Of a stretch of 36,514 nt of DNA, positions 1 through 12,361 are shown in pieces. Position numbers and translations under genes: made by a program. The notes below the pieces were generated by a model. It was given only the letters and a program-made list of their open reading frames with translations. It did no database searches and was not told where the DNA came from. The first letter of the stretch is position 1, and each line of letters opens with the position of its first letter. Source of the DNA: a virus; IMG/VR virus record IMGVR_UViG_3300033064_002024, positions 1 to 36,514 of that record; one strand, given 5' to 3'.

Positions 1-122
1 ACTACACGGGCGAGGTCCAAAGTTGTGCCACCCTCGATCTGGACATGGTCCAGGAACTTAACCTCTACCGGCTTCCCGATCCAGTCCTCGGGGATGGAGA
101 CCTGTGGTTCACACTGTGACAT
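1..122 (-). CDS. Partial small protein, leftward operon, function unknown
   Basis: The reading frame starts at the ATG complementary to 120-122 and runs off the left edge; 40 codons are visible. The protein begins MSQCEPQVSIPEDWIGKP and has mixed charged and hydrophobic residues with no recognisable motif. A strong GAGGAG ribosome binding site lies just upstream of the start. It overlaps the end of the preceding gene by 14 nt, so it is the fourth gene of the leftward operon. I do not recognise the family, and the C-terminus lies outside the window. Confidence 0.6.
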   Translation of the reverse strand, partial: MSQCEPQVSIPEDWIGKPVEVKFLDHVQIEGGTTLDLARV

Positions 123-285
123 GGTCTCTCCTCTTGTCTACATCGTCAACAGCCTGGCGTAGCTCCCTGACGACGTAGGCGGGAACATCGAACCCCCGCT
201 GCTCGCCGGGTGCGAGTTCGCCGTCCGGGAAACATAGCACCATTTTTCGTGCGGCAGCTAACAATCGGTGGATGGACGGTTTCAT
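109..285 (-). CDS. Small hypothetical protein (58 aa)
   Basis: This is the third gene of the leftward operon. The start at 285 is chosen because its ATG overlaps the stop of the preceding gene in an ATGA arrangement and has GGAG about 9 nt upstream. A longer open frame exists upstream but would run through the zinc-ribbon gene. The protein begins MKPSIHRLLAAARKM and ends in a charged helix-like stretch with VVRELRQAVDDVDKRR. No membrane segment or metal-binding motif is visible. I do not recognise the family; the small size and operon position suggest an accessory early protein. Confidence 0.6.
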   Translation of the reverse strand: MKPSIHRLLAAARKMVLCFPDGELAPGEQRGFDVPAYVVRELRQAVDDVDKRRDHVTV

Positions 286-467
286 ACCGGTAACTCCGAG
301 AACACCCACTGACCCTGTGGGTGAAGGGCATTTTCCGGGGGGTTTACACAGACGCACCACCCGTAATAGAGTCGAGTAGTCCGACCATCGGAGAGTGTCG
401 TGGGGAACGAGAAGTACACGGACAGGTGGCGTCCGCACTTGGGGCATGTGGCCTGTGTCCCCACCAT
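282..467 (-). CDS. Small zinc-ribbon-like protein (61 aa)
   Basis: The N-terminus carries a CPKCGRHL knuckle (Cys8 and Cys11), and a second cysteine pair, CVC, follows about 25 residues later. Together they could bind one zinc ion as a short ribbon. The start at 467 overlaps the stop of the upstream gene as TAATG, which points to translational coupling, and the stop overlaps the next start as ATGA. A TATAAT string sits on the start codon but has no -35 partner at a suitable distance, so I do not call it a promoter. The product may bind nucleic acid or protein; no specific function can be given. Confidence 0.65.
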   Translation of the reverse strand: MVGTQATCPKCGRHLSVYFSFPTTLSDGRTTRLYYGWCVCVNPPENALHPQGQWVFSELPV

Positions 468-622
468 TATACCATACCCCACAACCACCCATAGTACAGG
501 GAGACTCCCACATAGAGACCAGTGGGGATTAGACTTGAGAGGACGATACAGAGAAAGGAAGCAGGAGGATCGCGTTGATCCTCGCGGCAGCATGAGCCTT
601 CGTAGATGTCGGCGTCTCGCAT
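467..622 (-). CDS. Small membrane protein, first gene of leftward operon (51 aa)
   Basis: The start at 622 is chosen because AAAGGA lies 5-6 nt upstream and because transcription from the promoter at 654-682 should begin near 647, leaving a leader of about 25 nt. The polar N-terminal half (MRDADIYEGSCCRED) is followed by a hydrophobic half from about residue 22 (FLCIVLSSLIPTGLYVGVSL), which would form one membrane helix, and an aromatic tail YYGWLWGMV. The stop overlaps the next start as TAATG. Function unknown; single-span phage peptides of this kind may modify the host membrane or contribute to exclusion, but nothing here proves it. Confidence 0.6.
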   Translation of the reverse strand: MRDADIYEGSCCREDQRDPPASFLCIVLSSLIPTGLYVGVSLYYGWLWGMV

Positions 623-653
623 GGGCGTCCTTTCTCGATTTCTGCCACTTCCA

Positions 654-682
654 AGTATACCCGATAGTTGCGATCCTGTCAA
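654..682 (-). promoter_or_regulatory. Sigma70-type promoter for the leftward operon
   Basis: Read on the minus strand: TTGACA (677-682), a 17-nt spacer, then TATACT (654-659). The -35 box is perfect and the -10 box matches 5 of 6. The spacer carries TCGCAACTATCGGG, nearly the same as in the promoter at 13167-13195, which suggests an operator or a common origin. Confidence 0.85.
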
Positions 683-836
683 CCCCCGTAATAGAATTCC
701 TTTAGGGCAGAGCCTGCCGGATACTGGCGTATACCGCCTAAACCCGCCATGTATGTCGTAAACCTGGGTAGGCAACTTGGGGAATAGTTGCATTGTTAGG
801 ATACTCTGTTTAGCTGGGCTATATTTTTAACGGGGG

Positions 837-853
837 ATCTAAAGGGTTTAGAT
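837..853. promoter_or_regulatory. Short palindrome in the divergent control region, possible operator
   Basis: ATCTAAA, GGG, TTTAGAT form a perfect 7-bp inverted repeat with a 3-nt centre, in the gene-free stretch between the leftward promoter (654-682) and the rightward promoter (994-1022). The TTTAGA half-site recurs at 2838-2929. The rest of 690-993 is AT-rich with no gene that I can support. Confidence 0.4.
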
Positions 854-993
854 TTTAATAGGGAAATTTTGCATAATGTCCGAGGACGATAATAGAGGGT
901 GTCAAGGTCGCGGGCGAAGGCAAGGGTGATACCCCTATCTCCTTATAACAACAGCACTTACACCCCACGCGAGCACTTTTATTTCTTTTTTAT

Positions 994-1022
994 TTGCTTT
1001 TGCCCCACGGGTAGCGTAGACT
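994..1022 (+). promoter_or_regulatory. Rightward promoter with T-rich upstream tract
   Basis: TTGCTT (994-999), a 17-nt spacer and TAGACT (1017-1022) follow a T-rich run at 978-995 that resembles an UP element. The element at 3698-3726 has the same architecture. Predicted initiation near 1029 is about 41 nt before the first gene. Both boxes are weak (4 of 6 each), so the call rests on the shared layout and position. Confidence 0.5.
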
Positions 1023-1069
1023 ACCAATGCAAGCACACGACGCACACCGCTTGCACGGGAGATAGTACC

Positions 1070-1270
1070 ATGACAGCCTACAGATACAGAGCAGACACCG
1101 GCAGGCTCATCACCCATGGCCGCAAGTCGCCTGGGTTCTGGGCTTCTATGCTCTGGGCGGATCGGCGACGCCTCCCCCGACCGGTCGGCCTGAAGGCCCC
1201 TATGACTACATGGCAGCGTATCCGTCTGGTCCTAGAAGCATTGGCTATCGCCACCCTCATTCTATGGTAA
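1070..1270 (+). CDS. Small protein with C-terminal membrane segment (66 aa)
   Basis: This is the first gene of the rightward operon that ends at 2463. GGGAGA precedes the start at 1070. The N-terminal 40 residues are basic (MTAYRYRADTGRLITHGRK), and the C-terminal 22 residues, TTWQRIRLVLEALAIATLIL and flanks, form one membrane helix. An internal ATG at 1202 with GAAGG upstream would give a free 22-residue peptide closely matching the independent peptide gene at 12653-12721. The locus may therefore be a fusion, or may encode two products from nested starts. Function unknown. Confidence 0.55.
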   Translation: MTAYRYRADTGRLITHGRKSPGFWASMLWADRRRLPRPVGLKAPMTTWQRIRLVLEALAIATLILW

Positions 1271-1281
1271 GGAGTAGACCG

Positions 1282-1467
1282 ATGGAACTACGCTACTCAC
1301 ACACGACGCAAGATGGAACCGATCTATATGCATGGTTCAACATGGACGGATCAAAAGCCCTTGGGGACTACACCCTTGGGGAATGCTTCCGCCTATGGGG
1401 TACGCGACCGAAAAAGAATCCGAAAAACATTTGCATTCGGCCCACCCGTGACGTAAACTACAATTGA
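1282..1467 (+). CDS. Small hypothetical protein (61 aa)
   Basis: The start at 1282 follows AAGGAG by about 7 nt and lies 11 nt after the preceding stop, consistent with one operon. The protein begins MELRYSHTTQDGTDLYAW and is soluble, with aromatic residues in its N-terminal half and a basic tail around RPKKNPKN. No cysteine motif or membrane segment is present. I do not recognise it. The open frame extends further upstream, but that part overlaps the preceding gene and lacks a binding site. Confidence 0.6.
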   Translation: MELRYSHTTQDGTDLYAWFNMDGSKALGDYTLGECFRLWGTRPKKNPKNICIRPTRDVNYN

Positions 1468-1479
1468 AGGAGACACACG

Positions 1480-1647
1480 ATGAAAGACGCATGGCGACAA
1501 AAACCCGAGACTCGCGACAGCAAAACGCTTCCGCCCGCACACTGCCCGATCGGACAATGCAAAGACTGCCCGGCATTGTCGGACGGGTGCCCCGGAAAGC
1601 CCTTCCGCACCGACCCCACAGACCCGGCGTTCTGTTGGACGCCATAA
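1480..1647 (+). CDS. Cysteine-rich small protein (55 aa)
   Basis: This short gene begins at ATG 1480 with GAAGGAG upstream and lies 12 nt after the preceding stop. Four clustered cysteines (HCPIGQCKDCPALSDGC) are followed by a fifth near the C-terminus (FCWTP). The spacing C-x5-C-x2-C-x6-C could hold zinc or an iron-sulfur cluster, but I cannot match it to a named family. The frame competes with a longer frame that starts near 1464; the binding site, position and even gene spacing favour the call made here. Confidence 0.6.
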   Translation: MKDAWRQKPETRDSKTLPPAHCPIGQCKDCPALSDGCPGKPFRTDPTDPAFCWTP

Positions 1648-1670
1648 CTAGTAGCACAGGAGGCAGCACT

Positions 1671-1850
1671 ATGCAGAACGTCGAAATCACAATGAAAGAC
1701 AAGAAAATGATCATCACGGTCGATCTGTCCGTCAAGGGGACGCCTTCCGCGTCCGGGAAATCCCTGGTCATCGGCTCCACGAAGGGCAACGTCGAAGTCG
1801 GCGGGTCCAGCGGCGTCAAGGTCGGCGTCAACGTGTACAAGCCCAAGTAG
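1671..1850 (+). CDS. Small hypothetical protein, compact beta-rich (59 aa)
   Basis: The start at 1671 has GGAGG about 9 nt upstream. The sequence alternates hydrophobic and polar residues (NVEITMKDKKMIITVDLSVK), then SGKSLVIGSTKGNVEV and a final KVGVNVYKP strand, so a small beta-sheet fold is likely. I recall small uncharacterised bacterial and phage proteins with a similar SGKS-ASTxGNV-NVY pattern, but I cannot name the family and SGKS here is not a P-loop. It sits fourth in the rightward operon and lacks signal peptide and cysteines. Confidence 0.65.
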   Translation: MQNVEITMKDKKMIITVDLSVKGTPSASGKSLVIGSTKGNVEVGGSSGVKVGVNVYKPK

Positions 1851-1938
1851 TCCCTGTCCGGTCGGCATGGGGTCACGGACGACCCCACTGACGGTCTCGG
1901 CTACCGTCGCGGGCTTTACTCTAACAGAAGGGAATGAA

Positions 1939-2160
1939 ATGCATAAGATAACGGTAATCAGTACCAAAGGGAAGGCTCATATCATCCGCTGCTCTTCCCT
2001 CGCCCGTCTGCTAGACCTTTATGAGAAGGCCGGTGCCGACCCGTGGCTGGTAACACCCGATACAATTCAGATCGGCAAACGGTCGGGCGATGATCGTCGG
2101 CGTGGTGACGCCGACAGTGTGTTCTGCCGACGACATGACACCGAACGTCGCCAAGCCTAG
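1939..2160 (+). CDS. Small hypothetical protein, paralogue A of a tandem pair (73 aa)
   Basis: AAGGGA precedes the start at 1939. The protein begins MHKITVISTKGKAHIIR and continues with a leucine-rich helix (SLARLLDLYEKAGADPW) and a conserved VTPDTIQIGKR block near residue 45. It aligns throughout its first 50 residues with the next gene (MHK-TV, SL-LLDLY, GxDP, VTPxTIQIGKR), while the basic C-termini differ. The pair is therefore a tandem duplication. No catalytic motif is visible. The 88-nt gap upstream holds no gene that I can support. Confidence 0.65.
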   Translation: MHKITVISTKGKAHIIRCSSLARLLDLYEKAGADPWLVTPDTIQIGKRSGDDRRRGDADSVFCRRHDTERRQA

Positions 2161-2183
2161 ACCCCACACAACAGGAGAATGAC

Positions 2184-2420
2184 ATGCACAAGGCTACGGT
2201 TTATGACATCGACGGCGTATGCCATACGGTACGGGCGGAATCCCTCTTGGGGCTCATGGATCTTTACCAAAGACAGGGGATGGACCCCTACATCGTGACT
2301 CCTGGTACGATACAAATTGGCAAGCGGCACGGCCAGCGGCGTGCAGCCCCCTATCCGCCCACGTACCAAACGGCCGATGAACGACGAACGGCGAACCGTC
2401 GCGGCCCCGCCCGGTGGTAA
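2184..2420 (+). CDS. Small hypothetical protein, paralogue B of a tandem pair (78 aa)
   Basis: CAGGAG precedes the start at 2184. The protein begins MHKATVYDIDGVCHTVR, has SLLGLMDLYQRQGMDPYIV and the shared VTPGTIQIGKR block, then an arginine-rich tail ending ANRRGPARW. It is the last gene of the first rightward operon, and the terminator starts 17 nt after its stop. The duplicated core and divergent basic tails suggest a shared scaffold with different partners, possibly nucleic acid, but no function can be assigned. Confidence 0.65.
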   Translation: MHKATVYDIDGVCHTVRAESLLGLMDLYQRQGMDPYIVTPGTIQIGKRHGQRRAAPYPPTYQTADERRTANRRGPARW

Positions 2421-2436
2421 ACAGCCATTTCCTCTG

Positions 2437-2463
2437 AGCCCCCGCAAGGGGGCTTTCTTTTTT
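2437..2463 (+). terminator. Intrinsic terminator closing the first rightward operon
   Basis: AGCCCCC, loop GCAA, GGGGGCT form a perfect 7-bp GC-rich hairpin (2437-2454), followed by TTCTTTTTT. Stable stem, tetraloop and U-tract are all present, just after the last gene. Confidence 0.93.
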
Positions 2464-2540
2464 GCCTACATTTCCTCCGGGCCGACCGGCCTACGCCCGG
2501 CCCCCACACCCCCGTACAATCGGCGAGAAGCCGCTTGCAC

Positions 2541-2575
2541 GCCCCTATACGCTACGATCTCTCCTGTATAGGGGC
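2541..2575. repeat. Inverted repeat with GCCCCTATAC arms
   Basis: GCCCCTATAC (2541-2550) and GTATAGGGGC (2566-2575) are perfect 10-bp arms around a 15-nt loop. The GCCCCTATA core recurs singly at 3431-3439 and 4132-4140. Confidence 0.7.
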
Positions 2576-2768
2576 ATCGGCCCGGTTGCTCGCCCAGGGC
2601 TTTAGACGGCCGTCCAGCCAACAGGGTTCCGATTGTAACGACTGGCCGAATAGCGGCCCAAAGTGGGGCCTTTAAACAACGTGGATACTCGACTTATATG
2701 CCCTTGTCCCGGTGGTCCCAGTTTCGTCAAACAAACATAAATTCCGTTAACCCTTTAAGAATCTACTC

Positions 2769-2787
2769 TTATAAAAGTTTGTCCAGG
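2769..2787 (+). repeat. Left arm of a 19-bp spaced inverted repeat
   Basis: TTATAAAAGTTTGTCCAGG is the exact reverse complement of 3067-3085. The two arms flank the most AT-rich segment and are 279 nt apart. They end in mismatches on both sides, so the repeat is precisely 19 bp. Confidence 0.8.
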
Positions 2788-2890
2788 GTAAAACAGTTAG
2801 GGGGGAAGTTCTTACGTGTGGGGATTCGAGGGGTCTCATTTAGATTTAAATTTATAACCGTAATCTGAATACTCTGAATAGTCTAAAGAT

Positions 2891-2929
2891 TCTAAACAGT
2901 GTACAGAAAGTGTTTAGAAAGTGTTTAGA
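2891..2929. repeat. Cluster of TGTTTAGA sites
   Basis: TCTAAACA lies at 2891-2898 and TGTTTAGA at 2911-2918 and 2922-2929. The last two are part of an 11-nt tandem unit (AAAGTGTTTAG). A protein-binding cluster such as initiator or repressor sites is plausible. Confidence 0.5.
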
Positions 2930-3008
2930 TATCGTCACACTACACAGTATACATAAGATGCATAGAGTTATCCATCGGACTGGTATAGTTGTAACGGTTT
3001 TAACGTAT

Positions 3009-3040
3009 TATGGTAACAATAGACGATTACTGTTACCATA
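3009..3040. repeat. Perfect inverted repeat TATGGTAACA / TGTTACCATA
   Basis: Two 10-bp arms (3009-3018 and 3031-3040) surround a 12-nt centre, between the two arms of the 19-bp repeat. There is no U-tract, so a binding site or cruciform is more likely than a terminator. Confidence 0.65.
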
Positions 3041-3066
3041 AGGATGACACGCCTATTTGCCCTTAT

Positions 3067-3085
3067 CCTGGACAAACTTTTATAA
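3067..3085 (-). repeat. Right arm of the 19-bp spaced inverted repeat
   Basis: CCTGGACAAACTTTTATAA is the exact reverse complement of 2769-2787. See the left arm for the layout. Confidence 0.8.
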
Positions 3086-3590
3086 ATCCTTTGCCACGCG
3101 GCACTTAGTCGGGGCCATGTGTGTGGACGAAACTGGGACAAGTGGGACACTCTATAAAAACGCTGAGCAAACTCGCTGTTTGCTGTCCCGTTCACTTTTG
3201 ACCGATCCGGGAAAAGTGGGGCCTCTAAACCCCTTTCGGGAGACCCCCCTTACAGATGGACCCCTTTTGTATGATACACCGTAGGTGAATTACATACCTG
3301 TGAGACATACGCCTTTAAGCGTTCGGGTTTCGTTCGGGCGTGCTGGTTTAGATCGTCCACAATTCCGCCGATGTGGGTGCCTTCCGATACCGCTGTGACG
3401 GCCCACGCGGCATCGCGTTTTTAATCGCGTGCCCCTATAGAGACTCGGACCTTGCCCATGGCATATAACGTGGGGCTGACGCCTACCGGCACGATCTTAA
3501 TGGGGGGCCGGGGCCAGCCCGCTGTTTTAATGAGCATGGGTGCAATTAAAATGGGCGATGCGGGGTTTTAATCGTGGTCAGCCGGATCGG

Positions 3591-3676
3591 TTAAATGGGC
3601 CGGTACAAACGGCGTGCCAAAGGCTAGATCGCCCGCTTAAATGGCCCGGTGCATTTAACGTGCCAAACGGCTAGGC
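3591..3676. repeat. Imperfect tandem repeat, period 46 nt
   Basis: Two units start TTAAATGGGCCGGT (3591) and TTAAATGGCCCGGT (3637), and both continue to an ACGTGCCAAA or GCGTGCCAAA block and GGCTAG. Related TTAAT or TTAAAATGGG words lie upstream between 3480 and 3590, so the pair may be the best-preserved part of a longer site array just before the promoter at 3698. Confidence 0.65.
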
Positions 3677-3697
3677 AAAAAGAATTATTATTTTTAT

Positions 3698-3726
3698 TTG
3701 CTTCGCGGGCCGCAGTGTCGTACTGT
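3698..3726 (+). promoter_or_regulatory. Rightward promoter with T-rich upstream tract
   Basis: TTGCTT (3698-3703), a 17-nt spacer and TACTGT (3721-3726) follow a T/A-rich run (3677-3697). The layout, the TTTATTTGCTT sequence and a CCAATG downstream all match the element at 994-1022. Initiation near 3733 is about 42 nt before the first gene. Confidence 0.5.
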
Positions 3727-8549: not shown

Positions 8550-8749
8550 TGGAAACGGTACGACAAGGTATAATTCGTGTGGTACTTTGGCAGGCGATTA
8601 ACCTGCTTGTGAACATCGCCATCGTTTACCTGTTTGTCCGACAACCTTCTGTCGTAGGTTCAATAGTATTAACCAACCTCGGAGTCAAAGTTGTCTTGCA
8701 GTACGGATATGGACGACTTTTCCAGAAATTTTCATGGAAAACCCCTTGA
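8549..8749 (+). CDS. Small membrane protein, DUF2061-like (66 aa)
   Basis: Two hydrophobic helices (about residues 8-28, VVLWQAINLLVNIAIVYLFV region, and 34-52) are separated by a short loop, with a C-terminal YGYGRLFQKFSW tail. The layout ETxRQ, a W and helix 1, then VLTNLGVKVVLQYGYGRLF resembles DUF2061, a two-helix inner-membrane family whose members usually have ExxxKxxLYYxHE in the second helix. The match is by eye and imperfect. The start overlaps the previous stop as TAATG. The end of the gene overlaps the -35 box of the next promoter by 4 nt. Confidence 0.6.
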   Translation: METVRQGIIRVVLWQAINLLVNIAIVYLFVRQPSVVGSIVLTNLGVKVVLQYGYGRLFQKFSWKTP

Positions 8750-8774
8750 CAAAATGCCGAGTTGGCGGTATAAT
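8746..8774 (+). promoter_or_regulatory. Consensus sigma70 promoter
   Basis: TTGACA (8746-8751), exactly 17 nt, TATAAT (8769-8774): perfect consensus boxes and spacing. It should be the strongest host-type promoter in the window. Initiation near 8781 would give a leader of about 47 nt for the gene at 8828 and feed the replication genes downstream. Confidence 0.95.
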
Positions 8775-9583: not shown

Positions 9584-9772
9584 ATGGGTCGCCCGAAACT
9601 GGAATTGAACAAGAAGACAGTCCGAACCATCGTGAGTGGTTACAATCGGAAGCGTCGTCCCCTCGGTCTGGCTGCACTGGCCGAGAAGGTCGGCGTCTCC
9701 ATCCCCGTCGTCCGCCGTATCCTCGTTGACGAGGGCGTGACGGTGCGTGGTCGCGGTCGCCCGGTGAAGTAA
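9584..9772 (+). CDS. Small helix-turn-helix DNA-binding protein (62 aa)
   Basis: AAGGAG lies 6-7 nt before the start at 9584. The protein is basic and begins MGRPKLELNKKTVRTIVSGY. Residues about 26-50 (LGLAALAEKVGVSIPVVRR) have the spacing of a helix-turn-helix, with AEKVGVS as the turn and PVVRRILVDEG as the recognition helix. The tail GRGRPVK is AT-hook-like, and the N-terminal GRPK is similar. It is probably a transcription regulator of this operon or of the divergent region. It is unusually short for a repressor. Confidence 0.7.
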   Translation: MGRPKLELNKKTVRTIVSGYNRKRRPLGLAALAEKVGVSIPVVRRILVDEGVTVRGRGRPVK

Positions 9773-9780
9773 GATCGGGT

Positions 9781-9838
9781 ACCCCTGTAGCTCAGTTGGT
9801 AGAGCGTCCAGTCGCGGGTTCGAGTCCCGTCGGGGGTA
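9781..9838 (+). other. tRNA-like element lacking the anticodon arm
   Basis: All parts except the anticodon arm match a canonical tRNA: acceptor ACCCCTG (9781-9787) pairing with CGGGGGT (9831-9837); D-arm GCTCAGTTGGTAGAGC (9790-9805); T-arm GCGGG TTCGAGT CCCGT (9814-9830); discriminator A9838. Between D-arm and T-arm there are only 8 nt (9806-9813) where about 22-23 are normal, so the anticodon stem-loop is missing. CCA is not encoded. It cannot decode. It sits between two genes of one operon. It could be a tRNA fossil, an attachment-site remnant or a functional tRNA mimic. Confidence 0.75.
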
Positions 9839-9859
9839 GTAAGGAAAGGTGTTATTATT

Positions 9860-10015
9860 ATGGCTGAACAACGGGCCGAGCGGACGAAGGCTCACACCTG
9901 TAAGGCTTGTGGCCGTGAGTTCACTACCGATGAGGACGAGTTCAATCCGATCTGCGAGATGTTCTGTCCGATCTGTCTCGCTCCGTCCTCTTATCTCCTA
10001 GACCCAGAGGAATAG
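9860..10015 (+). CDS. Small zinc-ribbon protein (51 aa)
   Basis: AAGGAAAGG is about 9 nt upstream of the start at 9860. Two knuckles, TCKACGREFTTDEDEF and FCPICLAPSS, are typical of a four-cysteine ribbon. The gene begins 22 nt after the tRNA-like element and ends 1 nt before the next start. Function unknown. Confidence 0.65.
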   Translation: MAEQRAERTKAHTCKACGREFTTDEDEFNPICEMFCPICLAPSSYLLDPEE

Positions 10016-10444: not shown

Positions 10445-12361
10445 ATGTCGTTCGCGGCCATCCAAGAAATCCTCCGAGCTTGTGGCTATCCGTACAAGCA
10501 CGTCGTCACACTCGACGCCGAGTGTTACTTCGATTCAGATTATACTCTGAGCAAGATGTCCACGTATGAGTATCTGGCTGATCCCCGCTTTGAGATCCAT
10601 GGCTGGGCCGTCAAGCATAATGACGATAAGCCCAATTTCGTGCTCGAATTGCCAAAGCCCGTTTGGAAGAATACGACAGTGGTGCTGTTCAATGCCCCGT
10701 TCGATGCCCTTATTCTCGCGAGATACCATAAGATACACCCTCCGTTCGTCGTGGATGTCCTCGACCTCGCCCGGCACATCGAGCCCCGCTGGCCGAACAA
10801 ACTCGCGGCTCTGTGCAAGCGGCACGGCCTTACAGATAAGGGAGACACCAAGCAGTTCAAGGGACTGCATCGTGTGGGCAGCACCGGTCAGCAGTGGGTA
10901 GACCTGGTCAACTACGCCTGCAACGACGTGGAGCAGACCTTCCAGCTTCTCCTGCGATTGTTGCCGAAACTCTCGAACCCGGCGTTTGAGCTAAAGGTGG
11001 CAAAGTACACCCGCAACCTGTTCATATACCCGACTCTCGATTTCAATGAGAAGCGGGCGATACAACTGGAACAGAAAATGCTTGAGGAGGTAGGCCGAAC
11101 AGTCGCGGGCATTGACGCCACCGAGAAGGAGATTCGGGGTAACTTATCGTTCGAGAGATTGTTGCGTGAAGCCCTCGGTGATGAGGAACCCCCCATGAAG
11201 CAAGGAAAGCTAGGCCCGATACTCGCCATTGCGAAGACGGACGAGGGGTACAAGCACCTGCTGAACCACACAAATGTTCGTGCTCGACGGCTGATGGAAG
11301 CCCGTGTTGCTACTAAGTCCTGGCCCATTCACATCAAAAGGGTCCAGAAGATGAGGGCAATGTACAGGGCGGCGGGTAATCTCTTCCCTGTTCCGTTGCT
11401 TTTTTGTGGGGCACACACGGGCCGCTGGTCAGGTGGGGGCGGCGTGAACCTTCAGAACCTTGCGGCCCGAAGTCACCCTTTGGTCAATTCGATACGGAAC
11501 TTAATCAGGGCACCGGCTGGGTACACCCTCATCATCGAGGACTTCGCTCAGATCGAAGCCCGTGTCCTGGCGTGGATCGCTGGACAGGACGACCTTGTTC
11601 AACAGTTCGCATCCGGGACACAGATTTACTGTGATTTCGCCAGTGAGTTCATCGGTCACTTCATTCGGAAGCCGAAGAAAACTGACAGCAAGACGGTCGC
11701 TAAATGGCACGGTACCTACCGCCAAATGGGAAAAATCGGAATTCTCGGTGCGGGATACGGGCTAGGTTGGGAGAAGTGTATGACGTATGCGAAGAATACA
11801 TACGGCGTGGTACTCTCCGAGGCCCAGGCCCGCAGGTTGATAAAGCTCTATCGCAAACGCAACCAGATGATCGTGCTTTTCTGGGGGGATGTCGAGCGGG
11901 CCTTCCGCCTTGCGTTACAGACCGGTCAGACATACGAGCTTCCCCGTGGTCTCCGGTTCTTTCGGGACGGAAACACTGTTGTAATACAGTTACCGAGTAC
12001 CCGTTGTCTTCGGTACGCGGACGTAGGGGTGGACGGGACTACCCGTAGACCTTCTCTTTGGATGCCGGACCCAAGGGCTCCCCAGAAAGTGATACATATG
12101 TGGGGTGGGTACCTCACAGAGAACATCGTACAAGCGTCGAGCCGGGACATCCTGGCTGAAGCCGTGTTGAAAATCGAGGAACAACTAGGGGTACGCATCC
12201 CCCTCATGGTCCACGATGATATGTCAACCCTCGCTCTGGTGGCAGAGGCCGAGGAACTGCGAGACAAGATCGAGGCCATCGCACGGGTGTCGCCGACCTG
12301 GGCACCGGGCCTGCCCGTTGACATCGAGGGCAAGATATCGAAGGAGTACATAAAGATATGA
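10445..12361 (+). CDS. Family A DNA polymerase with 3'-5' exonuclease domain (638 aa)
   Basis: AAGGAAT precedes the start at 10445. The exonuclease part has Exo I (LDAE, 23-26), Exo II (LFNAPFDAL, 81-89) and Exo III (YACND, 157-161). The polymerase part has GAHTGRW (322-328), motif A IIEDFAQIEARVL (363-375, Asp366), motif B RQMGKIGILGAGYG (426-439, Lys430, Tyr438) and motif C MVHDDM (588-593, Asp591). There is no 5' nuclease domain, as usual for phage enzymes. The residue equivalent to E. coli Pol I Phe762 is Leu434, and motif C reads HDD instead of the usual HDE. It synthesises and proofreads phage DNA with the primase-helicase at 16899. The stop overlaps the next gene. Confidence 0.96.
   Translation: MSFAAIQEILRACGYPYKHVVTLDAECYFDSDYTLSKMSTYEYLADPRFEIHGWAVKHNDDKPNFVLELPKPVWKNTTVVLFNAPFDALILARYHKIHPPFVVDVLDLARHIEPRWPNKLAALCKRHGLTDKGDTKQFKGLHRVGSTGQQWVDLVNYACNDVEQTFQLLLRLLPKLSNPAFELKVAKYTRNLFIYPTLDFNEKRAIQLEQKMLEEVGRTVAGIDATEKEIRGNLSFERLLREALGDEEPPMKQGKLGPILAIAKTDEGYKHLLNHTNVRARRLMEARVATKSWPIHIKRVQKMRAMYRAAGNLFPVPLLFCGAHTGRWSGGGGVNLQNLAARSHPLVNSIRNLIRAPAGYTLIIEDFAQIEARVLAWIAGQDDLVQQFASGTQIYCDFASEFIGHFIRKPKKTDSKTVAKWHGTYRQMGKIGILGAGYGLGWEKCMTYAKNTYGVVLSEAQARRLIKLYRKRNQMIVLFWGDVERAFRLALQTGQTYELPRGLRFFRDGNTVVIQLPSTRCLRYADVGVDGTTRRPSLWMPDPRAPQKVIHMWGGYLTENIVQASSRDILAEAVLKIEEQLGVRIPLMVHDDMSTLALVAEAEELRDKIEAIARVSPTWAPGLPVDIEGKISKEYIKI

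Follow-up and report, generated by a model that had tools for sequence, protein, structure and literature searches.

What would a tRNA without an anticodon arm be doing between two genes of a phage replication operon? The question arose from the window, meaning the whole 36,514-nucleotide stretch analysed here (positions 1 to 36,514 of the uncultivated virus record IMGVR_UViG_3300033064_002024). An original prediction made from sequence had placed there a tRNA with intact acceptor stem, D-arm, T-arm and discriminator in which 8 nt replaced the anticodon stem-loop and variable loop, and had proposed three roles for it: a processing signal, a tRNA mimic or a fossil attachment site.

The element and its setting

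The predicted coordinates were exact. The element at 9781-9838 (+) is a 58-nt predicted tRNA-like RNA with no encoded CCA, every part named in the prediction is present in its sequence (Table 1), and the last linker base (9813) is the expected partner of G15. The Rfam tRNA family RF00005 accepted 9781-9838 at 47.6 bits (gathering threshold 29, E=2.7e-7) over the acceptor, D and T arms, and this was the sole RNA family match over the whole window. ARAGORN did not report 9781-9838 as a tRNA, and neither ARAGORN nor Rfam, which gave RF00005 alone, returned a tmRNA. With 8 nt between D-stem and T-stem and no anticodon stem-loop, the element is unable to decode. The minimum-energy fold of 9781-9838 was exactly the three-armed structure, both alone and within 178 nt of mRNA context. 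The folding energy by itself was unremarkable (z=-1.8), and the element was judged real on tRNA-specific sequence and structure together with comparative evidence, not on folding energy. Our own model (R1), with the window element included in its training set, scored it at 69.7 bits.

Table 1. Features of the armless element and neighbouring features in the window.
Feature	Position	Strand	Details
Sigma-70-like promoter TTGACA-17-TATAAT	8746-8774	+	12/12 consensus; likely operon start
Upstream gene, 62 aa, helix-turn-helix-like	9584-9772	+	Pfam HTH_58 at cut-off
Acceptor stem 5' strand ACCCCTG	9781-9787	+	7/7 paired with 9831-9837 CGGGGGT (one U.G)
U8/A9	between acceptor and D-stem	+	sequence
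D-arm	9790-9805	+	D-stem GCTC/GAGC 9790-9793/9802-9805; G18 G19; sequence, fold
D-loop AGTTGGTA	within 9790-9805	+	sequence
Linker GTCCAGTC, 8 nt	9806-9813	+	in place of anticodon arm and variable loop; sequence
T-arm	9814-9830	+	stem GCGGG/CCCGT, loop TTCGAGT; sequence
Acceptor stem 3' strand and discriminator	9831-9838	+	A73 at 9838; sequence
Shine-Dalgarno-like AAGGAAAGG of next gene	9841-9849	+	sequence
Downstream gene, 51 aa, weak zinc-ribbon similarity	9860-10015	+	Pfam Zn_Ribbon_TF E=0.003, below cut-off
Family A DNA polymerase	10445-12361	+	PHROG 17, E=6e-67

The element sits between two genes of a replication operon, in a same-strand gene run toward a family A DNA polymerase. The stop codon of the upstream gene (9770-9772) lies 8 nt before it, the Shine-Dalgarno-like sequence of the next gene begins 2 nt past it, and the ATG of that 51-aa gene follows 21 nt past it at 9860. 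The element has no terminator-like site on either side, and ~1 kb separates it from the closest upstream promoter of consensus type, so a free RNA from this locus would need processing. A near-identity search of phage records returned no relative of the window. The 80 polymerase relatives found for the window, many of which had short flanks, include a single carrier of an armless tRNA (L055), in which it also lies upstream of the polymerase and has a different, G.U-rich acceptor paired at 6/7; with one of about 80 relatives carrying it, the element is not essential to that operon.

Recurrence of armless elements and selection on the fold

The pattern used to scan viral contigs required the consensus of a D-arm and of a T-loop, with too few nucleotides between them to hold an anticodon arm, and placed no condition on the acceptor. 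Three such scans returned 88, 46 and 92 stretches, which together with the window and fetched phage records gave 175 distinct elements. Conservation of the D-arm and T-loop, partly built into the search pattern, was set aside as evidence. Linker length peaked at 8-9 nt (112/175 elements), and the acceptor was paired at 7/7 in 118 of the 175 and at a minimum of 6/7 in 149, against a random expectation of about 0.1% for a perfect acceptor. Acceptors paired at 6/7 or better use many different sequences, and the discriminator and position 74 vary across the class. About 150 similar elements are spread over many unrelated phages. When bacterial genomes were searched with the same pattern, copies with intact acceptors were found in Corynebacterium, Streptococcus, Weissella, lactobacilli and Microbacterium, several of them identical to viral ones; E. 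coli genomes searched with the Lactobacillus brevis-type element yielded none.

Cultured carriers include Polaribacter phage Danklef, L. brevis phages LBR48, Lb and 3-SAC12, Vibrio phage K476 and Alteromonas phage PT15-A5, in which the element is annotated as 'tRNA-OTHER', as a pseudogene, as a tRNA or not at all. The K476 copy lies within a tRNA cluster and has an encoded CCA, as expected for an RNA that matures like a tRNA. Ordinary tRNAs accompany the element in some phages, and 8 of 20 carrier records had no other tRNA-like match, so armless elements are not simply the tails of tRNA clusters. Searches of an open-access literature collection found no description of an anticodon-less or armless phage tRNA. 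Taken as a class, the armless elements suggest a real, recurring device.

Two other sets of tRNA-like elements were encountered. Lactococcus P335-group phages (L004, L172, L173) carry a conserved unannotated element with a perfect 7-bp acceptor, a shifted D-stem and a tiny hairpin replacing the anticodon arm; in bIL309 and D2544 this element follows the lysin gene. In L155, L123, L163, L112, L161 and L170 (mostly Chitinophagaceae, other Bacteroidetes), tandem tRNA-like D- and T-arms are joined by short hairpins, and the 3' acceptor strand of a unit seems paired with the 5' strand of the next unit, not with its own; circular permutation of tRNA genes, or a repeat, might account for them. Bacteroidetes pattern matches in bacterial genome contigs, a different element, were set aside because their acceptor halves are likewise unpaired with each other.

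Covariation was measured in an alignment of 50 divergent members chosen for acceptors with six or more of seven pairs, so that the diversity of the pairs, and not the percentage paired, serves as evidence. All 7 acceptor positions changed on both sides, with a covariation score of 0.777 vs 0.150 for shuffled and <=0.156 for slid controls, and three variable T-stem pairs covary in the class. The tertiary 15-48 pair, formed by base 15 and the last linker base, was G-C in 92, A-U in 38 and other in 4 of 134 elements. Covariation of the acceptor and of 15-48 alone might reflect inheritance from many separate tRNAs, and comparisons within lineages were made for this reason. L221, L288 and L291 share a neighbouring protein about 90-95% identical, with the element at the equivalent position. 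Between L221 and L288 there are four two-sided compensatory changes and one broken pair, the stems being rewritten and mostly still paired. Copies within one 180-kb record (L228) differ by one compensated pair. The element is conserved at 95-98% identity across 34 L. brevis-type loci, against 16-70% for the sequence outside it, the drop falling at both predicted RNA ends.

These comparisons support selection on the fold of the armless class, as the original prediction had proposed for the remaining arms. The build-up of uncompensated stem mismatches in close relatives that would have counted against that proposal is absent from the class, with exceptions in L291 (two broken acceptor pairs) and L017/L078 (acceptor paired at 2/7). 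For the window copy the proposal holds by class membership and one distant syntenic relative only: the suggested search for compensatory changes in related phages succeeded for the class in L221 and L288, and for the window copy it reached L055, the sole carrier among its polymerase relatives. We infer that the window copy is functional from its membership in the class, not from covariation of its own.

Proposed processing and competing explanations

Among the three roles, that of a processing signal agrees best with the evidence. We give an even chance to the reading that the element mimics a tRNA without decoding and lies within polycistronic transcripts, where host RNase P and 3' tRNA-processing enzymes cut it. 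Its acceptor stem, D-arm and T-arm could form the tRNA elbow, with the anticodon arm reduced to a short linker. Presumably transcribed within the replication operon, the window element would be cut just 5' of 9781 by host RNase P and just 3' of 9838 by host 3' tRNA-processing enzymes. Such cuts would split the transcript, giving the upstream part a new 3' end and the downstream polymerase part a new 5' end, with the ribosome-binding site of that part 2 nt further on, and would release a stable RNA of ~58-61 nt as a third product. The main use is probably the cut itself, as mRNA punctuation, with a use for the freed small RNA possible. The acceptor-T stack and the D/T elbow are what bacterial RNase P recognises in its substrates, and the anticodon stem-loop is reported to be dispensable for it (PMC4975455, PMC4919922); the parts read by RNase P are kept and the dispensable arm is gone, which favours processing.

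The surroundings of the elements bear on the same point. Where both flanking genes agree in orientation relative to the element, they are mostly co-directional with it (49 (+,+) vs 12 (-,-)). Some copies lie in long noncoding regions rather than between closely spaced genes, which counts against processing, as do the variable discriminator and position 74 and the single carrier among about 80 polymerase relatives. In L228 and L084, armless forms and possible smaller acceptor-plus-T-arm forms precede noncoding RNA and repeat arrays by TnpB-like genes, where a clean RNA end would be useful. The retention of the parts read by RNase P, the co-directional flanks, the carrier records free of other tRNA-like matches, the encoded CCA of K476 and the copies by TnpB-like genes together favour a processing element, with a mimic acting in trans as the main rival.

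In that rival, host proteins that recognise the elbow or 3' end of tRNA would be bound by the freed RNA and either blocked or put to use, candidate targets being tRNA-targeting defence nucleases or toxins, modification enzymes, EF-Tu and the CCA-adding enzyme. It is consistent with retention of elbow and acceptor, including the 15-48 tertiary pair, with the location of several copies in the variable regions that separate late regulators from terminase genes and tend to collect accessory genes, and with the presence of four or more copies in one record. Against it, the acceptors have no common identity element: G3.U70, considered as an aminoacylation identity common to the class, was rejected, being present in 5/50 only. 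Nor was a common partner gene or host group found among the carriers; a single conserved partner was rejected in view of diverse neighbours, among which terminases are commonest on the downstream side and late regulators or HNH genes on the upstream side. The mimic proposed originally remains a candidate, at a probability well below that of processing.

A normal phage tRNA drifting after a deletion had removed its anticodon arm would look similar, given that partly shortened tRNAs occur in viral contigs, that some members have broken acceptors and that the window copy has just the one distant syntenic relative. Decay would not be expected to cluster linker length at 8-9 nt, to leave compensatory changes between close relatives or to conserve the element far beyond its flanks, and acceptors of 6/7 or more were found in 100/112 armless elements vs 59/89 partly shortened tRNAs among the matches listed. 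On these sequence comparisons decay is disfavoured for the class, for which decay or chance appears very unlikely; as a reading of the element, decay is considered improbable. Less probable again, and by a wide step, is a fossil or active attachment site or recombination junction at which phages integrate or exchange modules. Upstream and downstream modules do switch at the element in L. brevis-type prophages, and the Lactococcus P335-group versions either follow the lysin gene or are close to the end of the genome. The attachment site in the original proposal was nevertheless not supported: the window ORFs scanned gave no integrase match (in a record that may be incomplete), selection acts on the pairing of the 5' acceptor strand, which is not part of a 3'-half attachment core, and many copies lie inside operons with co-directional genes. 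That the element is half of a split tRNA, its anticodon arm supplied from elsewhere, has almost no probability; nothing beyond the missing arm speaks for it, a short linker, constrained in its length and in its final base, connects the sequences flanking the gap, and we know of no bacterial pathway for such joining.

Plain tRNA processing, the preferred reading, does not explain one further observation. In L085, L089, L079, L091, L215, L221, L012 and L288 the leader pairs with the trailer and extends the acceptor helix by 5-11 bp; at least 5 extra bp were found in 8/134 elements where about 1.5 were expected, and such pairing may hinder tRNA-type processing.

Related systems and implications

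M3 RNA and C4 RNA are not known to form complete acceptor/D/T tRNA tops, and the tRNA-like domain of tmRNA is a tRNA-like end without a true anticodon arm. The window element differs from tmRNA in having neither a tag reading frame nor a long body, and from ordinary phage tRNA genes, whose RF00005 model it also passes, in that without an anticodon arm it cannot decode. M3 RNA and antisense C4 RNA are phage non-tRNA substrates of bacterial RNase P (PMC11143913), and the armless element would likewise be a phage RNA processed by host RNase P. Closer in form are mascRNA and menRNA, the tRNA-like 3' ends of MALAT1 and MEN-beta, which are also non-decoding, about 58 nt long and built of a 7-bp acceptor, a T-arm and a D-loop GG elbow; release by RNase P and RNase Z with CCA addition is proven for them and would be predicted for the phage element (PMC11693755). 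In mascRNA a stem occupies the site of the anticodon arm, the D-arm is reduced and linker residues are absent, whereas the phage element has a full D-arm and its anticodon arm is gone; the former are parts of vertebrate long noncoding RNAs and the latter of phage operons, and no common ancestry is claimed. The t-elements, tRNA-like processing sites in plant mitochondrial transcripts, are again tRNA-like structures inside a transcript, a use that the phage element may share; compared by description, they differ in being organellar and cut by protein-only RNase P (PMC4919922). The phage armless element is a fresh variation on this theme of tRNA-like structures.

Several loci combine armless elements with other RNAs. 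L228 (IMGVR_UViG_2529292852_000001, 180 kb, with a RepA_N gene) has CRISPR-like arrays at 1-3700 (-), with 13 copies of a 34-37 nt repeat at a 66-bp period, adjoining a 551-aa TnpB/Cas12f-like protein. Each of its four armless elements lies 5' of a conserved noncoding stretch, 3/4 of these stretches run into arrays or a repeat-related region, and tRNA-like forms with T-arm and acceptor only occur between the armless elements; this arrangement is possibly a natural tRNA-guide RNA processing unit. In L084 (11360-13300) and L088 an armless tRNA is followed by a 418-aa TnpB-like gene (NCBIfam guided_TnpB above cut-off) and then by a second CRISPR-like repeat array, with a further reduced tRNA-like form upstream. 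Several of the L. brevis-type loci (L222-L307, cultured relatives L313-L315), those with the module switching described above, have the armless tRNA followed directly on its 3' side by a second structured RNA with a ~7-bp closing stem (e.g., TTGGGCA/TGCCCAA in L234).

A broader view, put forward tentatively and with low confidence, is that phages of many families keep a dedicated non-decoding, anticodon-armless RNA that is processed and stable and whose targets in trans are host proteins of tRNA handling or tRNA-targeting defence, and that the same fold or a further reduced acceptor-T form, placed in some large elements upstream of noncoding RNA and repeat arrays near TnpB/Cas12-like genes, serves as a natural tRNA-guide processing unit. 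ARAGORN misses the element in the window, several cultured phages have it labelled as a pseudogene, as 'tRNA-OTHER' or not at all, and the cultured carriers make both the processing and the trans ideas testable. If acting in trans, they would be a new kind of phage RNA. If processed, they would be compact, portable RNA cutting sites, made by shedding the one arm that RNase P can do without, and would add a layer of phage mRNA control besides promoters and terminators.
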